A stretch of 64,000 nt of DNA from Spirochaetae bacterium HGW-Spirochaetae-4. GTDB lineage: Bacteria > Spirochaetota > Spirochaetia > Sphaerochaetales > Sphaerochaetaceae. Shown here piece by piece: positions 7,221 to 16,080 of the stretch (position 1 is the stretch's first letter; every line of letters begins with the position of its first letter). The translations under genes and the position numbers were made by a program. Where the stretch lies: positions 1-64,000 of the forward strand of contig PGXU01000007.1 of assembly GCA_002839335.1 (NCBI GenBank), written 5' to 3'. The notes under the pieces were generated by a model. That model was not told the DNA's origin. It made no database searches and saw only the letters and a program-made list of their open reading frames with translations.

Positions 7221-7391
7221 TGGTCGTGGTTATAACAGAACACGATTGTATGCACGGGTTACGTCAGCTGATTATAATTCGAAGCATCGGTTGGGGATAC
7301 GATATAAAGGTGTAAATTGTTCGCCACGTGATATTGAGTTTTTTTTTCCGATAGTGTAAGGTGGTCATCGTTCGTACAGGGCATGGATCAT

Positions 7392-7475
7392 GCCGGCGTG
7401 GTGAAATTGGTAGACACGATAGACTCAAAATCTATTGGGGGCAACTCTGTATCGGTTCGAGTCCGATCGCCGGTA
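7392..7475 (+). tRNA. tRNA-Leu (anticodon CAA)
   Basis: A class II tRNA of 84 bases. The acceptor stem is GCCGGCG with CGCCGGT, closing with a G-U pair. The anticodon arm ATAGA/CTCAAAA/TCTAT presents CAA, which reads UUG. A long variable arm follows (TGGGGGCAACTCTGT region), then the T arm ATCGG/TTCGAGT/CCGAT and discriminator A. The 3' CCA is not encoded and must be added by enzyme. Confidence 0.93.
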
Positions 7476-7484
7476 AACAACAAC

Positions 7485-7524
7485 AAGCCGATTCGTTTTT
7501 CAACGGATCGGCTTACTTTTTTTT
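7485..7524 (+). terminator. Intrinsic terminator after tRNA-Leu
   Basis: AAGCCGATTCG (7485-7495) pairs with CGGATCGGCTT (7504-7514) over 11 positions with one G-U pair, has a short T/A-rich loop, and is followed by ACTTTTTTTT. It lies nine bases after the tRNA and separates it from the actin array. Confidence 0.88.
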
Positions 7525-7626
7525 CAAACTATCTTTCTTTCCTAACACAATATACCTCGAATTTGTCAAAAATTGCCTGAATCTGGTTGTCATAAGTCAA
7601 TCAGTTTTTGTGCATTGAGATAACAT

Positions 7627-7656
7627 TTGACATACATTTAATGTAAACAGTAAAAA
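7627..7656 (+). promoter_or_regulatory. Candidate distal promoter with palindrome in the spacer
   Basis: TTGACA (7627-7632) is followed after 18 bases by TAAAAA (7651-7656), a partial -10 match. Directly after the -35 box lies the perfect palindrome TACATT-T-AATGTA (7633-7645), well placed to be an operator. The -10 match is weak. Confidence 0.4.
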
Positions 7657-7774
7657 AATGTAATTGTATTACGATTAGGTAACTCTTTCAGAGAGTTGGA
7701 GTAACAACAGCTTCATACACAAACCACAGGAGAAAACTTCGTGGATATGTATGGAAGTGATTTGGTACAAAACA

Positions 7775-7822
7775 TTGTGCTATGTCACAACAGGTAAATT
7801 TATGTTTCATACTATGTCACAA
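7775..7822 (+). repeat. Repeated CTATGTCACAA elements upstream of the actin array
   Basis: The 11-mer CTATGTCACAA occurs at 7780-7790 and again at 7812-7822, 32 bases apart, close to three helical turns. The first copy is also the right half of an inverted repeat, TTGTG (7775-7779), six bases, CACAA (7786-7790). They lie just upstream of the proximal promoter and could bind a regulator. TGTG/CACA spacing differs from a CRP site. Confidence 0.45.
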
Positions 7823-7856
7823 GATGTACATAAGTACAAATAATTACAGATTTTGC

Positions 7857-7885
7857 TTGACACCGTTTCTGCCCCATGGTTGAAT
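7857..7885 (+). promoter_or_regulatory. Candidate proximal promoter of the actin array
   Basis: TTGACA (7857-7862) is a perfect -35 box. Seventeen bases later TTGAAT (7880-7885) gives four of six -10 matches. It leaves an approximately 80-base leader before the first actin gene at 7971. Confidence 0.5.
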
Positions 7886-7970
7886 GGTGCTTGGAATAAC
7901 AGAATTCAAAGCACATGCGATGGGATCTTCCCAGACTATGTAGAAGGCTCTGTAACTGAAGGAGAGAAAC

Positions 7971-8996
7971 ATGAAGGATAAAACGAACTTGTCCGTAGGT
8001 GTGGATCTTGGCACCTCCAATCTACTCATCTATGTTGAAGGCCAAGGAACACTTTTCAATGAGCCCTCAATCATCGCGATCGACAAAGCTACACAGAAAG
8101 TGGTTTCTGTCGGCTATGAAGCGGCGAAACTGGTCGGCAAGACCCACGACAAGGTCCAGGTCGTGCGACCCCTCCAAGGTGGAGTCATCTCGGATATCCA
8201 GCTGATCAGGGAAATCCTGTTGTTCACATTGGACAAGATCTTCCTTTCCAACCTGGACTCGATCAACAAGATGCTCATCTGTATTCCCTCGGAAATCACC
8301 AATACCGAGAAAGAGGCGATTGTCGAACTCGGACATAGCCTGGGTATCAGGAACACCGAGATCGAGGAAGAGATCAAAGCTGCCGCCCTGGGTTCCGGTG
8401 TCGATATCTTCGCTCCGAAGGGCCATATGGTGATCGACAGCGGTGGCGGGACAACCGATTTTGGAATCCTCTCCCTTGGCGATGTGGTCCTCTCCAAATC
8501 CATCAAGATTGCCGGAGACTTTTTTGACAAACAGATAATCGACCATGTGAAGATCGTCCATAAATTGGAAATCGGTAATCAGACCGCGGAACGGATCAAG
8601 ATTTCGCTCGCCTCGCTGACCGGGCCGTACCCCTTGGATGAGGATGGTCAGCCGGTAGTGTTCGAAGCCATGGGCCGCGATCTCGTTTCCGGCTTGCCCA
8701 GGAGGGTTGTGCTGGGGACCGAAGAAATCCGGGAAGTCCTGCTGAACGCATTTGAGGCGATCAAGTCCATACTACTCACGACTCTTGAGGAAACACCGCC
8801 GGAACTGGCTGGAGATCTCGTCGATTCCGGAATCCTTCTCACCGGAGGATGCTCGCAGATTCCAGGTATCAAGGAATATATCGCTGAAATCGCGCAAGTG
8901 CCCGTGTATTTGTCCGAGGTTCCGTTGACCGCGGTTATCGACGGATGCAAGAAGATGCTCAAGATGACAAACAGACACTTCTACAGTGAAGTATAG
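7971..8996 (+). CDS. MreB-like actin homologue, copy 1
   Basis: A 341-residue actin-fold protein of MreB length. Nucleotide-site motifs are all present: phosphate 1 DLGTSNLLIYVEG (from Asp12), phosphate 2 DSGGGTTDFGILSLG, and adenosine motif GILLTGGCSQIPGI. The helix that carries the catalytic glutamate in MreB (IEEP-MAAAIGAG) reads IEEEIKAAALGSG, so the conserved proline is lost. The best start has GAAGGAG nearby. Two further paralogues follow at 14- and 12-base gaps, in place of the usual mreC and mreD. I infer a filament-forming cytoskeletal ATPase. Whether it is the housekeeping MreB or a specialised filament is open. Confidence 0.82.
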   Translation: MKDKTNLSVGVDLGTSNLLIYVEGQGTLFNEPSIIAIDKATQKVVSVGYEAAKLVGKTHDKVQVVRPLQGGVISDIQLIREILLFTLDKIFLSNLDSINKMLICIPSEITNTEKEAIVELGHSLGIRNTEIEEEIKAAALGSGVDIFAPKGHMVIDSGGGTTDFGILSLGDVVLSKSIKIAGDFFDKQIIDHVKIVHKLEIGNQTAERIKISLASLTGPYPLDEDGQPVVFEAMGRDLVSGLPRRVVLGTEEIREVLLNAFEAIKSILLTTLEETPPELAGDLVDSGILLTGGCSQIPGIKEYIAEIAQVPVYLSEVPLTAVIDGCKKMLKMTNRHFYSEV

Positions 8997-9010
8997 GGAA
9001 GGTGGAGACG

Positions 9011-10039
9011 ATGAGTGCAGCTGCAATGAATGAAAAATTGGGCCTGGGTATAGACCTTGGCACTGCGAACCTGTTGGTGTATTTGGAGAGGAAGGGAATC
9101 ATTTTCAACGAACCTTCCGTAATCGCCTTTGACCGAGAATCGGGAAGGATCGTTGCTGCCGGCGAGGATGCCCATAAGATGTTGGGAAAAGTCCACAGCA
9201 AGATATCGGTGGTCAAGCCACTGCGCAGTGGTGTCATCTCGGATATGCGGGCAGCCAAGGCTTTGCTGACCTATGTGCTGGGAAAAGTTGAGAACTTGAC
9301 GGAAAAGAACCTTACCAAGACTACCTGCGTCATCTGCTGTCCTTCCGAGGTGACGAAGATCGAGCGGGATGTCATGATCGATCTTGCCGCAAAGATGAGT
9401 ATCACGGATGTCTTCATCGAAGAGGAGATCAAGTCCGGTGCCTTGGGTTCCGGAGTTGATATCTTCAAGTCGAAGGGAGTCATGGTTGTGGATATCGGCG
9501 GTGGAACCACCGATGTCGGAGTGATTTCCTTCGGTGATATCGTCCTTTCCCGTACGATCCGTAAAGCGGGAAGCTTCATGGACGATGAGATAGCCAAGTA
9601 TGTGAAGAAGACCCAAAGTGTCGAAATCGGTGAACTGACATCGGAACGGGTGAAGATGGAACTCGGGGATCTCCACTCGTCGGCAAAATCGGTGACCAAC
9701 AAGTACGCCGGACGCGACATGGTCAAGGGTATTCCCAAATGGGTGAACCTGACAACCGAAGAGATTCAGGGCGTCCTGGTTCCCGTCTTTGATGAGATAG
9801 TGAAATTGATTGCCGCTGTACTCAAGGATACACCGCCGGAACTTTCCGCCGATATCTTCCAACATGGGATTCTGCTTACCGGTGGATGTTCTCTCATGAG
9901 GGGAATCGAAGAGTACATTGGAGATCGCATACAGGTGCCGGTGCATGTTGTCCACAATCCGCTCACTTGTGTCGCTGAAGGTACGAAATATCTGCTAAAG
10001 AACCGCGGTGACTATCTGGTCAATCCGCTTCAGCTGTAG
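9011..10039 (+). CDS. MreB-like actin homologue, copy 2
   Basis: A 342-residue paralogue of the neighbouring genes. It has DLGTANLLVYLERKG (from Asp15), DIGGGTTDVGVISFG and GILLTGGCSLMRGIEEY, so the ATP site looks complete. The catalytic-helix segment is IEEEIKSGALGSG, again without the MreB proline. I chose the ATG at 9011, which has GGAAGG 8 bases upstream; a GTG at 9002 is also in frame. Its sequence differs clearly from copies 1 and 3 outside the motifs (for example LTYVLGKVENLTEKN), so the copies are old and have diverged rather than being a recent duplication. It is co-transcribed with both neighbours. Confidence 0.82.
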   Translation: MSAAAMNEKLGLGIDLGTANLLVYLERKGIIFNEPSVIAFDRESGRIVAAGEDAHKMLGKVHSKISVVKPLRSGVISDMRAAKALLTYVLGKVENLTEKNLTKTTCVICCPSEVTKIERDVMIDLAAKMSITDVFIEEEIKSGALGSGVDIFKSKGVMVVDIGGGTTDVGVISFGDIVLSRTIRKAGSFMDDEIAKYVKKTQSVEIGELTSERVKMELGDLHSSAKSVTNKYAGRDMVKGIPKWVNLTTEEIQGVLVPVFDEIVKLIAAVLKDTPPELSADIFQHGILLTGGCSLMRGIEEYIGDRIQVPVHVVHNPLTCVAEGTKYLLKNRGDYLVNPLQL

Positions 10040-10051
10040 GAGGCTTGCATC

Positions 10052-11098
10052 ATGGCGTTGACAATTGGCAAACAAGAGAAGGCTAAGACTGCTGCGGGGA
10101 AGAATATCGGTATCGATCTTGGAACCGCAAATATCCTGGTTTATGTGGAAGGCGAGGGAATCATCACCAACGAGCCTTCGGTAATCGCATTCGATTACGA
10201 GACGAACGAAGTGATCGCAACCGGCCAGATGGCCGCGAACATGATTGGCAAAGGGCACCATGGAATCAAGATTGTGAGCCCTTTGAATCAAGGTGTCATC
10301 TCGGATATCGATGCGACCAAAAAATTGATCGAGATTTCCTTGCAAAAGGTGGAGAACATCAATATCGACATCTCGTTGTCCACCCTGTTGCTCTGCTGTC
10401 CTTCCGAGGTCACACAACTGGAACGGGATGCCTTCATGGCATTGGGCACCAAGCTGGGGGTCAAGGATATATTCATCGAGCAGGAAGTGAAGGCCGGTGC
10501 GATCGGATCGGGGCTGGACATCTTCAGCAGCAACGGATCCATGATGATCGATATCGGTGGGGGGTCTACGGATATCGGAGTCCTCTCGCTTGGAGATATC
10601 GTGGTTTCCGAATCGAACCGCATCGCTGGAAATTATTTCGACAACGAGATCATGAACCACATGCAGTATGTCCATGGGTTGTTGATTGGAAAAAAGACAG
10701 CCGAGCGGATCAAGATGGAAATAGGCTCCTTGCGTGAGAAGATCGAAAATCCACGCCAGACCTATGCCAATGGACGCGATGTGGTCTCCGGATTGCCTAG
10801 GAAGATCATGGTAAACGAGAACGAGATCAGGAATGTCCTGGCGACTCCGTTCGAATCGATCGCGACCATGGTTCTGAAAGTATTGCAGAATACACCGGCC
10901 GAGCTGTCCGCGGATATCATAGTCAACGGAATCTATATCAGCGGCGGTGGCGCGTTGATCGATGGAGTGGACGAGTTCCTCCACAAGAGGATCGGAATGG
11001 ATTTCTATATTTCGCGACGTCCTTTGACCGCGGTGGTCGACGGCACGAAATTATTGTTGAAGAATAGGGGCAGCTATTTTGTGAAACCTACAGATTGA
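10052..11098 (+). CDS. MreB-like actin homologue, copy 3
   Basis: A 348-residue actin-fold protein with an N-terminal extension of about ten residues relative to copy 1 (MALTIGKQEKAKTAAGKNIG). Motifs: DLGTANILVYVEGEG (from Asp22), DIGGGSTDIGVLSLG and GIYISGGGALIDGV. The catalytic-helix segment reads IEQEVKAGAIGSG, so one of the two acidic residues conserved in MreB and in copies 1 and 2 is Gln here; hydrolysis may be slower or absent. It lies 12 bases after copy 2 and 124 bases before the gene for a degenerate EAL protein. A protein mixing with the other two in one filament is plausible but not shown. Confidence 0.8.
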   Translation: MALTIGKQEKAKTAAGKNIGIDLGTANILVYVEGEGIITNEPSVIAFDYETNEVIATGQMAANMIGKGHHGIKIVSPLNQGVISDIDATKKLIEISLQKVENINIDISLSTLLLCCPSEVTQLERDAFMALGTKLGVKDIFIEQEVKAGAIGSGLDIFSSNGSMMIDIGGGSTDIGVLSLGDIVVSESNRIAGNYFDNEIMNHMQYVHGLLIGKKTAERIKMEIGSLREKIENPRQTYANGRDVVSGLPRKIMVNENEIRNVLATPFESIATMVLKVLQNTPAELSADIIVNGIYISGGGALIDGVDEFLHKRIGMDFYISRRPLTAVVDGTKLLLKNRGSYFVKPTD

Positions 11099-11222
11099 GC
11101 TTCTGCTGTCCCTTGACGATATTGTTCGGATCCTTCATTCCCCCATACAGGTTATGGAGGGAATGGAGGGTTCGGCTTTGACTCACATGTGCCTGTCTTG
11201 GATGGTTTCGAGGAGTGGTGGA

Positions 11223-12710
11223 ATGAAAAATTGCAGGAGAGTTTGGCTGAAGTTTGGAATTGCTTGTCTCATGCTGTTATTGTTCGGACTCTGGCAATCG
11301 GCATCCATCATTGTCGTTACCACCGCATCCCTTCTGTTTTTTTGTATGGTCATGGCATATTTTCAAGAGGATGGGGAAACCCCGTATACCCTTCCCAAAT
11401 CCATACGCAAATGGCTGATCGCCAATGAAGATGAGATGGAATCGCTATTCTGCATTTTTGTTGAATCCTCCCCGAAAGGATTGTTCCATTCTGTCTTGGA
11501 CCATGAGAATTTGGATGATTTGTACCAGAATATCCTTTCTGAGATGCAGAACTATTTCGGTTGTGCCCATGTACGCCGGATTTCGCGCGACCAATATGTC
11601 GTACTGAAGGAATTCCCTTCCGCCCAAAGTATCGAAGAAGAGCAGAAGACCCAATACCAACGGAAGGTGACCCACCATATTTCCGAACAGATACAGAATA
11701 TCATCTCTTCGTACGATGAACGGGCTATGCAACTAGTCGAAATATCGATCGGGTGTGCCGCATCGGGAATCCGCTATCGTGTGGGAAGGATTGAAGAATT
11801 GTTGGAGTTGGCTTATTTCACCATGAAATCGGCACAAGAGGATAACCAACCGTTCATCGTTGCCAACGAATCCATCCGTGCGAGAAAATTCGACATCGAG
11901 GAATGCAAGGTCGGATTCCTGAAAAAACATTGGGAACAGGAATTCAACCCCTTTTTCCAACCGATTGTCGATCCGATTTCATTTCGGGTCGTCGGGTTGG
12001 AGAGCCTTGCCCGCTGGCAGCTGGGTGGTTTCAGGATCCTCAGTGCACAGGTTTTCAAGGATTTGGCATATGAGATGCACCGGATCAGCACGATCGATAC
12101 CACAATCATCAGAAAAACATTCGCGGCTGTGAAGGAACTCAAGGACGAAGGTCTCGTTCCCTATGGATTCAGGGTCGTAATAAACGTCAGTGCGGTAAGT
12201 CTGACAAAAGGTTCGGTCGAACGGTTGTGCGATTGGGTCGCGGAGTACGAATTGCATCCGGAACATATCGAATTCGATATCAAGGACACGATTCTCAGCG
12301 ATCCCGAGGTGAGCGATTCAATCAGCGCCTTGCGTACAAAGGGTTTCCGTATAGCTCTGGATGCATTCGATGAGGAAGCTTTCGACCTCAAGGCCTTTTT
12401 CCAGAACAATTTCGATATCATCAAGTTGAATTTCTCCCTCTATGGAGTCAAGAATTGGAATTCCGACCACCAGGGACCACGGGTATTCGACTCGCTCATG
12501 GACATGGCCCAACATCTTCAAATCGAGACATTGGCGAAAGGAATCGAATCGCGGATGCAACTCGATGCGGCGAAGGAACTCGGTGCCGCCTACTTGCAGG
12601 GCAACTATTTCACCCCTCCGATTCCCTTGTCCGATTTCAGGAACTTCATGCAAAAGTATCGCGAAGGGTTGTATCTTGATGCCTATATCGGTGCCTCCGA
12701 ACTGGCTTGA
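11223..12710 (+). CDS. Membrane protein with degenerate GGDEF and EAL domains
   Basis: A 495-residue protein. Two close membrane helices occupy about residues 9-48 (IACLMLLLFGLW and IIVVTTASLLFFCMVMAYF). Residues about 70-230 look like a worn GGDEF domain with no GGDEF signature. Residues about 240-480 form an EAL fold: FFQPIVDPISFRVVGLESLARW starts it, with EAL changed to ESL. NVS is kept, but ELTES reads DIKDT, DDFGTG reads DAFDEE, KID reads KLN and AEGVE reads AKGIE. Phosphodiesterase activity is therefore unlikely; binding of cyclic di-GMP or a purely structural role is possible. The ATG at 11223 has AGGAG 7 bases upstream. It follows the actin genes, so a link between membrane, nucleotide signal and filament is a fair inference. 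Its 3' end overlaps the convergent purDN by 28 bases. Confidence 0.78.
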   Translation: MKNCRRVWLKFGIACLMLLLFGLWQSASIIVVTTASLLFFCMVMAYFQEDGETPYTLPKSIRKWLIANEDEMESLFCIFVESSPKGLFHSVLDHENLDDLYQNILSEMQNYFGCAHVRRISRDQYVVLKEFPSAQSIEEEQKTQYQRKVTHHISEQIQNIISSYDERAMQLVEISIGCAASGIRYRVGRIEELLELAYFTMKSAQEDNQPFIVANESIRARKFDIEECKVGFLKKHWEQEFNPFFQPIVDPISFRVVGLESLARWQLGGFRILSAQVFKDLAYEMHRISTIDTTIIRKTFAAVKELKDEGLVPYGFRVVINVSAVSLTKGSVERLCDWVAEYELHPEHIEFDIKDTILSDPEVSDSISALRTKGFRIALDAFDEEAFDLKAFFQNNFDIIKLNFSLYGVKNWNSDHQGPRVFDSLMDMAQHLQIETLAKGIESRMQLDAAKELGAAYLQGNYFTPPIPLSDFRNFMQKYREGLYLDAYIGASELA

Positions 12711-14644
12711 CAACAGGTAAGATCGTCCCGGGAGGCATATGCCCTGGAAAGACACTCGCACAGCGCCTCCCCCTCCAGCTGTTGTATACGTTTTTTGAGT
12801 GTTCCCGGGGTATCGTCTGGTGAGATCAAGCAGGTTTTTTGTTTGAGGATCGGGCCGGCATCAACCGTCGAAGTGACCAAATGGACTGTACATCCTGTTT
12901 TGGCATTTCCCGTCTCGTGCATCCGCTCGATTGCCAACGCGTGCGTGTCGGTATCCTTGGTTCCGGCAAATTCAGGCAACAACGACGGGTGGACATTCAT
13001 GACCCTATTGTTCCAACGTTCGCAAAATTCCGCACCGAGAATCCGCATATATCCTATAAGCACGATCGTTTCGACCTTCGCATCCTCACACAGCCTCGTA
13101 ATCTCATGGTCCCGGGCCGCTCCCTTGCTGGCGATCCAAGCGTTCGGAATCCCATGGACCCGTGCCTTGTGCAGTATGCCGGCATCCTCGCGATCGGAGA
13201 GCACCAACTCTATGGAAGCGGGCAAAGTTCCCCGACCGATCTGTTCTACTATGGCTTCCATGTCGGTACCGTTCGTGGAACCGATGATCGCGATGCGAAG
13301 CGGATTGCGCAACTGCCGCATATGGTTGATCCGCTTCTCCAGCAGCTGCTTGCTGCCGATATCCGACCGATACCGCAGCTTTCCCTTGATCGAGGAGATC
13401 GCGTCCATGACGTCATTGCGGGCTTCTCCGATTGTCTCTCCCAAAGCCACTAGGGCCAAGGTCCTAGAGCCGGCGGTGACCAGTGAGCTTTCCGTCTCTT
13501 CGACCGAGCCGAGGCATACGGATATTCCGTGGGGAAGCACGCCGATATGAACCGGTTCCCCTTTCGCTTGTCCCATCGGGTAGGATTGCGGGACCAGGTA
13601 CACACACACCGAAGCAGCTTCGGAGAGCTCCAGTGTGTAGTCTGCCAATGTGCCGTTTGCGGTGCGTTCGAACATCTCCAATACATCGCTTTGGATCAAC
13701 AGCATGAGGTTCAAACACTCCGGATCACCGAATCTCGCATTGTACTCGATGATTTGGATTCCATTGGCTGTAGCCATGAATCCACCATACAGGATTCCAC
13801 GGTAAGGAGAGCCGGTAGTCGCTTCCAACTCACGTATGACGGTTTCGTTATAGCTTTTGGCGGTTTCGAGATCACGTGGGGTGAGGAAAGGCAATGAAGA
13901 CATCCGATCGCTGTAACTGCCCATACCTCCGGTATTCGGACCTGTGTCGCCATCGAACGCACGCTTGTGGTCTTGGACAGGAGGAAGATGTAGGAAGGTC
14001 TTTCCATCGGTGACGGTCATGAGGGAAAATTCCTCGCCTTCGAGCTTTTCCTCGATCACACAGCGCGGTTGCTGCACAGTATCGGGAACGGGCTTCAGCA
14101 GACTTCTGCAATAGGCGATCGCCTCCTCGTCGGAATGCAGGTGTTCTCCCGCGACCAGTACTCCCTTGCCTCCCGTCAGACCATCCGCCTTTATCACATA
14201 GGCGCCATGCAGGTCTCGCACCCGGACTGTTGCCTCATCGATATCGTGGACGACATGGAAACGCGGGCAAGCCTGGGGAAGGATGGACCGAAGGAATTCC
14301 CGTGCGAAAGACTTGCTCGTCTCGATTCGTGCAAGAGCCTTGTCAGGCCCGACAACAGGGATTCCAGCCTGTCTCAACGCATCGGCGACACCGGTTTCCA
14401 GCGGAGCTTCGGGCCCGATGATTGCCAGGGAAGCCTCGATCGAGCGCGCAATATCCACCATCATGTCGGGATCGGTGATGGATCCTTTGCTATAAGTCCC
14501 CCCGCTGGCCTTGCAGATTTCGGCGATTCCCGGGTTGTCCGTAGTTCCGACGCAATGGATGCACCATGGCGTACGGGAACTGGCAAGCCGTTGGGCCATG
14601 GCATGTTCCCGAGCACCAGAGCCGATCAGGAGAAGATGCTTCAT
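12683..14644 (-). CDS. purDN: Phosphoribosylamine-glycine ligase fused to phosphoribosylglycinamide formyltransferase
   Basis: A 653-residue fusion of two purine enzymes. Residues 1 to about 430 are PurD (GAR synthetase, ATP-grasp), starting LLLIGSGAREHAMAQRL and containing KADGLTGGKGV and NARFGDPE. Residues from about 449 are PurN (GAR transformylase, using 10-formyl-tetrahydrofolate), with the catalytic triad visible as Asn550 and His552 in NVHPSLLPEF and Asp595 in STVDAGPIL. The two catalyse consecutive-but-one uses of glycine: ligation, then formylation. The start MKHLLL has AAGGAG upstream, and its ATG overlaps the purF stop (ATGA). It is the last gene of the operon. Its 3' end overlaps the convergent EAL-protein gene. 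Confidence 0.92.
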   Translation of the reverse strand: MKHLLLIGSGAREHAMAQRLASSRTPWCIHCVGTTDNPGIAEICKASGGTYSKGSITDPDMMVDIARSIEASLAIIGPEAPLETGVADALRQAGIPVVGPDKALARIETSKSFAREFLRSILPQACPRFHVVHDIDEATVRVRDLHGAYVIKADGLTGGKGVLVAGEHLHSDEEAIAYCRSLLKPVPDTVQQPRCVIEEKLEGEEFSLMTVTDGKTFLHLPPVQDHKRAFDGDTGPNTGGMGSYSDRMSSLPFLTPRDLETAKSYNETVIRELEATTGSPYRGILYGGFMATANGIQIIEYNARFGDPECLNLMLLIQSDVLEMFERTANGTLADYTLELSEAASVCVYLVPQSYPMGQAKGEPVHIGVLPHGISVCLGSVEETESSLVTAGSRTLALVALGETIGEARNDVMDAISSIKGKLRYRSDIGSKQLLEKRINHMRQLRNPLRIAIIGSTNGTDMEAIVEQIGRGTLPASIELVLSDREDAGILHKARVHGIPNAWIASKGAARDHEITRLCEDAKVETIVLIGYMRILGAEFCERWNNRVMNVHPSLLPEFAGTKDTDTHALAIERMHETGNAKTGCTVHLVTSTVDAGPILKQKTCLISPDDTPGTLKKRIQQLEGEALCECLSRAYASRDDLTCCQASSEAPI

Positions 14645-16080
14645 GAGGGGACTCCTTGAATATAGGGACCACCCAGGCAAGCGTGGCACGGTTCGTCGAT
14701 ATGGTGTTCGCCCTTTCTTGTAACGGCCTCTATCAAATCCTCCAGTTCCTGGAACAGCAGGATCTCGACTCCCAGGAACGTTCGGATATCCTCGATCGGG
14801 TTGTTCGCCGCGATCAATTCTTCCTTCGTGGGTATATCTATTCCGTAGAAGCAGGGTTGGATGACAGGAGGGCAGGCACTGATGAAGTATATCTCCTTGG
14901 CGCCAAAATTCCGGATCATCGAGACGATTTCCTTGCTGGTGGTTCCCCGAACGATACTATCGTCCACCACCATGACCACCTTGTTGCGGATCTCCAACTG
15001 TTGTGGCACCAGCTTGTAGCGTACCGACTGTCGCCGCTCTTCCTGGTTGGGCATGATGAAGGTCCGACCGATGAACGGATTCTTGTACAGGCCATCGGAA
15101 TAGTTGGTCTGCAATTCCTTCGCCATCGCGAGAGCCATGGTATTCGCGGTCGAAGGTGCGGGAATGATCACATCCGGCCTGAGTTCCCCGTACAGTTGCT
15201 TCCACCGTTTGCCCAGGTTTTGTCCCATGCGCAATCTCGCCCTATAGACGCTTACGGAATTCATCATGGCGTCGGGACGGGAAAAATACACGTATTCGAA
15301 GATACACGGATTGAAGGCGTCCGTCACGATCCGTTTGGAAAAGAGCTTTCCCTGTGGTGTGATGTAGACCGCTTCTCCAGGGAGTATATCCCTCACCAGC
15401 GTGTACCCAAGCATGTAGAACATGGTGTTCTCGCTTGCGACGATATACTCCTTGGCTCCGTCGGTTCCCATCCGTTCTCCCAACACAAGGGGTCTGATAC
15501 CATGCGGATCCCTGAATGCCACCAGACCGCGGTCTTTGATGATGCTGACAGCCGAGATCGATCCACGGGTGAGGGTGAACACCTCGTTGACGGACTTCTC
15601 GATATGGGAGAAGAACTCCTCGTCGGACAGGGCGAGCGATTCACAGCCGTCCAGCCGTTTCTCAAGGACCGAGGAGAACAGTTGCATGAGCATCTCGGAA
15701 TCGCTTGTCGTATTGAGATATCGTCTCCTGTTTTGGATCACCTCGTGCGTAAGCTCCTTGTGGTTCACGATATTTCCGTTGTGTGCGAATGCGATTCCGT
15801 TGGGTACGCTGGTCCAAAACGGTTGCACTTCGTCGTTTCCAGCCTTGTCGCCGCTGGTCGGATACCTGGTGTGGCCGATACCCATGGTTCCCTGCAAGCG
15901 CCGGATATGCCGTTCTTCGAAGATATCGCGGACAAAACCTGTTCCGGTCTTGAAATGCAACCTGCTGTCGCATGTTATGATTCCCGCCGCATCCTGACCG
16001 CGATGTTGCAGTTGGATCAAGCTGTCATACAGTTGCATCGCGACCGGCGTCCTGCCGATGATCCCCACTATTCCGCACAT
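14641..16080 (-). CDS. purF: Amidophosphoribosyltransferase
   Basis: A 479-residue enzyme of the first committed purine step: glutamine plus PRPP to phosphoribosylamine. The chosen start puts Cys2 (MCGIVGIIG) at the N-terminus after Met removal, as needed for the Ntn-type glutaminase; the upstream in-frame ATG at 16104 would block this. RGQDAAGI and FAHNGN of the glutaminase half are present. The phosphoribosyltransferase signature VVMVVDDSIVRGTTS lies near residue 355. There is no cysteine set typical of the iron-sulfur form that I can confirm. It overlaps purE by 13 bases at its start and purDN by 4 at its end, so it is translationally coupled. Confidence 0.94.
   Translation of the reverse strand: MCGIVGIIGRTPVAMQLYDSLIQLQHRGQDAAGIITCDSRLHFKTGTGFVRDIFEERHIRRLQGTMGIGHTRYPTSGDKAGNDEVQPFWTSVPNGIAFAHNGNIVNHKELTHEVIQNRRRYLNTTSDSEMLMQLFSSVLEKRLDGCESLALSDEEFFSHIEKSVNEVFTLTRGSISAVSIIKDRGLVAFRDPHGIRPLVLGERMGTDGAKEYIVASENTMFYMLGYTLVRDILPGEAVYITPQGKLFSKRIVTDAFNPCIFEYVYFSRPDAMMNSVSVYRARLRMGQNLGKRWKQLYGELRPDVIIPAPSTANTMALAMAKELQTNYSDGLYKNPFIGRTFIMPNQEERRQSVRYKLVPQQLEIRNKVVMVVDDSIVRGTTSKEIVSMIRNFGAKEIYFISACPPVIQPCFYGIDIPTKEELIAANNPIEDIRTFLGVEILLFQELEDLIEAVTRKGEHHIDEPCHACLGGPYIQGVPS

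Follow-up and report, generated by a model that had tools for sequence, protein, structure and literature searches.

Cytoskeletons that consist of several MreBs and function in the absence of a rod complex have been regarded as an innovation of the wall-less Mollicutes lineage. Two Spiroplasma MreBs suffice to give a minimal cell helicity and swimming, and mixed MreB protofilaments have been proposed as the cause of curvature (PMC9710875), while Haloplasma, whose wall-less cells are contractile, contracts with seven MreBs and without the fibril protein (PMC8432965). Here we describe a trio of MreB genes, followed by a gene for a membrane-anchored EAL-domain protein, in Spirochaetae bacterium HGW-Spirochaetae-4. 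The window is a 64,000-nucleotide stretch of that genome (assembly GCA_002839335.1, contig PGXU01000007.1, positions 1 to 64,000; our genome G000, contig C10), and the sister genome of its genus is G001. Judged by tree placement, by the clustering of diverged copies and by a lost proline, the trio belongs to the Haloplasma/Spiroplasma multi-MreB clade. The three complete MreB-family genes and the EAL gene run in one direction:

7971..8996, + strand: mreB-a, first of the trio, 341 amino acids; Pfam MreB_Mbl 357 bits; C-terminus ...FYSEV, without a KNRG tail
9002..10039, + strand: mreB-b, the middle MreB, 345 amino acids; Pfam MreB_Mbl 367 bits; C-terminal tail KNRGDYLVNP
10052..11098, + strand: mreB-c, the third MreB, 348 amino acids; Pfam MreB_Mbl 368 bits; C-terminal tail KNRGSYFVKP
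11154..12710, + strand: degenerate GGDEF-EAL membrane protein, 518 amino acids; Pfam EAL 144 bits

Kinship to the Mollicutes-type sets is apparent already among solved structures: the closest relative of mreB-a is Spiroplasma MreB3 (7e1c, 1e-78), and that of both mreB-b and mreB-c is Spiroplasma MreB5 (7bvy, 7e-81 and 4e-83, respectively), with the Thermotoga, Geobacillus and Caulobacter MreBs ranking behind Spiroplasma MreB5/MreB3 for all three. A tree of 100 proteins (IQ-TREE, C20) was built from the trio, canonical, Spiroplasma and Haloplasma-like MreBs, the latter coming from class-Bacilli genomes with 5–7 MreBs, so called by copy number and kinship alone; the Spiroplasma and Haloplasma-like genomes were retrieved by a class-wide search. 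A branch with 100/100 support separates all canonical MreBs, those of the same class included, from the trio, Haloplasma-like and Spiroplasma proteins; within the latter group the trio and Haloplasma-like copies are joined at 96/91, with Spiroplasma beside them. The resemblance to Spiroplasma and Haloplasma, drawn in the initial annotation as an analogy, is thus a real kinship. Moreover, copies 1, 2 and 3 of the trio in spirochaete family f17 each pair with a different Haloplasma-like paralogue (100/98, 98/93 and 100/99), the gene order z-x-y is common to f17 and a Haloplasma-like genome, and mreB-b joins Haloplasma-like paralogue class x (95/89 and 98/96). In an approximately unbiased (AU) test, monophyly of all trio copies was rejected (p = 3e-63); that of all f17 copies was rejected as well (p = 1e-60), whereas one-to-one orthology across phyla of a with z (p 0.16) and of c with y (p 0.30) was neither established nor rejected. 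The tree and the AU test of trio monophyly rule out duplication in place of a canonical spirochaete MreB. The interleaving is not caused by the C-terminal tail or by long branches, since the pairings are the same without Spiroplasma, the long branches or the C-terminus, and contamination of the f17 bins with Haloplasma-like sequence is unlikely: the trio contigs have 46–54% G+C, as do their flanks, versus 28–34%. Since each of the three f17 copies has its own Haloplasma-like partner and the gene order is the same, the tree points to paralogues that had already diverged when the set was transferred, as an operon, from one phylum to another; it probably moved as a unit.

The gene calls, Pfam and alignment bear out the initial annotation's description of three full-length, diverged actins 12–14 bases apart with complete motifs. 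For mreB-b, an ATG at 9011 is a likelier start than 9002, giving a 14-base gap after mreB-a, and 12 bases separate mreB-b from mreB-c; pairwise identity among the three proteins is ~45%. Their scores of 357–368 bits (MreB_Mbl, PF06723, cut-off 27 bits), together with intact phosphate-1, phosphate-2 and adenosine motifs of the actin ATPase, place all three in the MreB/Mbl family. They fall below the cut-off of TIGR00904, the MreB/Mrl cell-shape subfamily (297–299 versus 365.75 bits), and pass the looser NF010539 (322–336 versus 293 bits). One claim required correction. The same annotation had read a change of the catalytic EEP to EEE, EEE and EQE, which proved to be off by one: in an alignment of 133 MreBs, the position of canonical xIEEP(M/K) reads IEEEIK in mreB-a and mreB-b and IEQEVK in mreB-c, so that the catalytic Glu (second E of EEP; E143 in mreB-c, matched to Thermotoga maritima E131 by counting along the alignment) is conserved in all three, and it is the following proline that is replaced, by Ile, Ile and Val. 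This proline is also lost (EE[IV]K) in Haloplasma-like and most Spiroplasma copies. The MreBs of Bacilli read EEEPK, with the extra Glu and the Lys in common with the trio, which hints that the Haloplasma/Spiroplasma/trio clade arose near the MreBs of Bacillota.

A C-terminal tail, N[RK]G.Y[LFR][VI].P, is present in mreB-b, mreB-c, six of seven f17 copies and 29 of 32 Haloplasma-like copies, versus none of 46 canonical MreBs (33 of a full-C-terminus set checked separately) and none of 28 Spiroplasma copies. In the membrane loop, the trio does not have the two bulky hydrophobic residues seen in canonical MreBs. A conserved tail combined with a weak membrane loop fits a protein partner at the membrane, which the trio may use.

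Among the closest known systems is the multi-MreB set of Haloplasma, with which the trio shares the clade, interleaved paralogues, the C-terminal NRGxYL tail, the three-gene order seen in f17 and the ending of the cluster in a membrane protein. The two differ in copy number (three versus 5–7), in G+C content (43–55% on the trio side versus 28–34%) and in partner: the EAL protein in the trio, the proteins c14 and c15 in Haloplasma-like clusters. Protein c14, which ends these clusters, is unrelated to the EAL protein and has one C-terminal membrane helix in four of five cases. Both are conserved, unannotated proteins of Haloplasma-like clusters (in L181, c15 at 7322–9214 and c14 at 11606–13033); c15 (~625 amino acids, weak PIN-like match) lies between MreBs and c14 (~440–525 amino acids in most) after them. 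The swimming cytoskeleton of Spiroplasma (SMreB1–5) is likewise composed of clustered, diverged MreBs, lacks the proline and provides the nearest solved structures; however, the trio has neither an ATPase-dead MreB3-like copy nor a basic C-terminus, and its host keeps wall enzymes. Canonical MreB (MreBCD–RodA–PBP2) shares the actin fold, Pfam family and ATPase motifs, but stands across the 100/100 branch, retains the hydrophobic membrane loop and works with MreC, which the trio host does not have.

Judged by gene content, this host has lost its rod-building machinery. The trio are the only MreBs of the genome, two further matches being DnaK-like (55 bits) and FtsA-like (47 bits), and MreC has no match anywhere in it, which rules out an ordinary MreB with mreCD encoded elsewhere. 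The initial annotation had reported mreC, mreD and pbp2 as absent: the loss of mreC holds genome-wide, and a single transpeptidase remains, but for MreD the lack of a match in the genome is a weak negative, as the model likewise gives no match in a class member that carries mreBC. One SEDS protein was found, on a contig also carrying FtsA, and neither a second nor a PBP2 in the genome. MreC is absent from all sampled trio genomes versus present in 19 of 24 class members of other families; where canonical mreB occurs in the class, it is mostly accompanied by MreC, three SEDS matches and 3–5 transpeptidases. A paper of 2020 records that Sphaerochaeta and Bullifex lack rodA and mreC, and that mreB is present in Sphaerochaeta and absent in Bullifex and S. 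coccoides (PMC7738495). By these traits the host spirochaete is probably of the Sphaerochaeta group, and it is probably round-celled.

A survey of 395 genomes of the class found the trio in 18. The window's genus accounts for two of these (among its three genomes), genus g3 for 11, family f4 for two and f17 for three; in one f17 genome (G481), two adjoining copies were seen on a short contig and the third was not located. In 15 genomes, of families f1 and f4, the four genes keep their order amid otherwise different neighbours. Between G000 and G001 the three MreBs show 0, 1 and 0 amino-acid differences over 1034 residues (the mreB-a protein being 100% identical in G001), compared to 5–12% for flanking proteins, and four-fold sites differ by 9–16% in the trio versus 27–33% in the flanks. 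By this pattern of substitution the trio are working genes under extreme constraint. In one f4 genome (G471; L219 5850–9826), mreB-a has an in-frame stop, mreB-c is shortened and the EAL gene carries a TGA, so that only mreB-b is intact; decay of the entire module seems to be under way there, unless the assembly is in error.

The fourth gene encodes, as the initial annotation had held, a two-helix membrane protein with a worn EAL domain. Its start at 11223 is favoured by homologues over 11154, so that the gap after mreB-c is 55–124 bases, depending on the start. In the predicted model, two N-terminal helices precede a GGDEF-like part of low confidence and an EAL barrel; the mean predicted local distance difference test (pLDDT) score is 65, with ~85 for the EAL part. 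Structural comparison (Foldseek, VIA-align) matched the model to tandem GGDEF-EAL proteins, MorA among them, and the EAL domain superimposes on PdeA with Z 26.5 and 2.4 Å over 251 residues. The GG of GGDEF is lost. Across all homologues both active sites, GGDEF and EAL, are degenerate by a common pattern, which for EAL speaks against an active phosphodiesterase: E265D and D296A/V/L/I in 15 of 15, and E352K in all 14 homologues having that column. Conversely, E175, N233, D295, K316, E355 and Q372, several of them ligand-side, are retained. The numbering is that of RocR, mapped through the alignment; E265, D296 and E352 of RocR are metal-binding and general-base residues. Loss of catalytic residues with retention of ligand-side ones suggests a receptor for cyclic di-GMP (c-di-GMP) rather than an enzyme, as in FimX/LapD-type receptors, which share the tandem degenerate GGDEF-EAL fold with catalytic residues lost and ligand-side residues kept. 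The trio's partner, in which c-di-GMP binding is putative, differs from these in its two-helix anchor without a periplasmic domain and in its linkage to actin genes. With 41 GGDEF matches in its own genome, the host likely has c-di-GMP signalling. A relative without MreB (G023; 2.2 Mb, one contig) has no GGDEF proteins versus 8–41 in 13 others tested, and most genus g3 loci (L224, L227–L230, L223) carry a second EAL protein ~3 kb upstream of the trio, of ~640 amino acids with 5–6 membrane helices and 26–29% identical to the trio's EAL partner.

We favour, with middling confidence, a three-subunit actin system of the Haloplasma/Spiroplasma type that would influence cell shape in the absence of an elongasome; the EAL protein would serve as its anchor or c-di-GMP gate. 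Given the kinship to Spiroplasma and Haloplasma MreBs, the three proteins would form mixed antiparallel filaments on the membrane, in which differences between the subunits would bend or stiffen the polymer, as has been suggested for pairs of Spiroplasma MreBs; rather than direct wall elongation, such filaments would act mechanically on the shape or deformability of the cell. Because the trio has no bulky hydrophobic membrane loop, the EAL protein may anchor the filaments to the membrane, and it may also read c-di-GMP to switch or tune them, like dead EAL receptors of the FimX type. Several points weigh against this proposal: (i) the placement of mreB-a is uncertain, on a long branch; (ii) the f17 trio genomes have no EAL homologue, so that the EAL protein is not intrinsic to the filament; (iii) most members of the window's family are without any MreB, making the system dispensable in the lineage; (iv) trio genomes retain FtsW and one transpeptidase, whereas Spiroplasma and Haloplasma are wall-less; and (v) the published Sphaerochaeta relatives are coccoid, with no motility or helical shape reported (PMC7738495). 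Overall, the interpretation in the initial annotation, a multi-component filament system anchored or gated by the membrane protein, is partly supported. The checks named there came out in its favour, with no canonical mreBCD elsewhere in the genome, a four-gene order kept in 15 genomes and perfect co-occurrence of the EAL gene with the trio in families f1 and f4; the sequences thus show the gene set and its linkage, while mixing of the polymers, anchoring and gating are inferred.

The main rival is a rewired elongasome, in which the trio still serves wall synthesis by positioning the last FtsW–transpeptidase pair and hydrolases (e.g. MltG) at division or patchy growth sites. The persistence of one SEDS protein and one transpeptidase, the presence of mltG upstream of the trio in two genomes and the peptidoglycan precursor genes reported for Sphaerochaeta (PMC7738495) all agree with it. 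However, there is no MreC, the same FtsW and transpeptidase are found in relatives that lack MreB altogether, and mltG does not adjoin the trio in genus g3; we therefore regard this alternative as unlikely, albeit deserving of attention. More doubtful is an extension of the favoured actin system, namely a c-di-GMP-gated heteromeric actin motor of three Haloplasma-type MreBs, anchored by the catalytically dead EAL receptor, that would deform or move non-flagellated, coccoid diderm spirochaetes with some peptidoglycan, its operon having passed between phyla. A somewhat poorer chance still is given to the EAL gene encoding an independent signalling protein and simply lying next to an actin set that works without it: the f17 genomes and the gap after mreB-c would agree, but the gene lies directly 3′ of the trio in 15 of 15 f1/f4 arrays despite non-conserved flanks, no terminator was found between mreB-c and the EAL gene, and the EAL profile exceeds 600 bits in exactly these 15 genomes (next class match 144 bits), with no homologue in the other 380, a perfect co-occurrence in f1 and f4. 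Finally, a MamK/ParM-like cytoskeleton that positions an inner body or partitions DNA, for which actin-fold filaments with a membrane adaptor could serve and which recalls the compartment-like body in cells of the relative Bullifex (PMC7738495), is highly improbable, as the trio scores 47–84 bits against the MamK model NF040964 (cut-off 400) and is likewise far below the BeeR cut-off, no centromere-like repeats were found at the locus, and the genes are chromosomal, beside housekeeping genes.

As a kind, the multi-MreB cytoskeleton is already known; as far as the open literature shows, what is new is that it occurs in a further phylum, that the match to Haloplasma-like genomes extends to the operon and that it has an obligate dead-EAL partner. 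A literature search limited to openly readable papers found no link between Sphaerochaeta MreB and Spiroplasma MreB. That spirochaetes carry this set of paralogues, in one family in matching gene order, means that the system exists outside Bacillota, and suggests a shape-changing machine common to several phyla. It offers diderm relatives, some of the cultivable Sphaerochaeta kind, for asking what such actins do, and bears on whether force generation preceded wall loss; the conserved dead c-di-GMP protein beside the trio is a possible control input.

Upstream, the locus is bounded as follows:

7391..7476, + strand: tRNA-Leu(caa), called by ARAGORN; left boundary of the trio region
7485..7514, + strand: terminator-like hairpin, 13 bp + T8, between the tRNA and the trio leader
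7775..7790, no strand: TTGTG-N6-CACAA palindrome, CRP/FNR-like, in the trio leader; 1 match versus 0.07 expected in the window

By synteny, the mltG–tRNA-Leu junction is also present in the trio-less sister G002, which has no trio gene after the tRNA within the stretch read, and in G003 and G017, whose contigs end at tRNA-Leu. The trio leader comprises 450 bases downstream of the tRNA-Leu terminator, and its final 135 bases are nearly identical in the sister genome. Its palindrome is perfect; it is kept in G001 and present in L119, and genus g3 loci showed no copy. A direct repeat of 20 bases (CTATGTCACAA...) occurs twice in the leader, 32 bases apart at 7780–7831, possibly as a tandem operator. 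PADLOC called nothing. Just downstream of the EAL gene, on the opposite strand (12683–14689 of the window, –), lies a gene for a PurD-PurN-like fusion of 668 amino acids.

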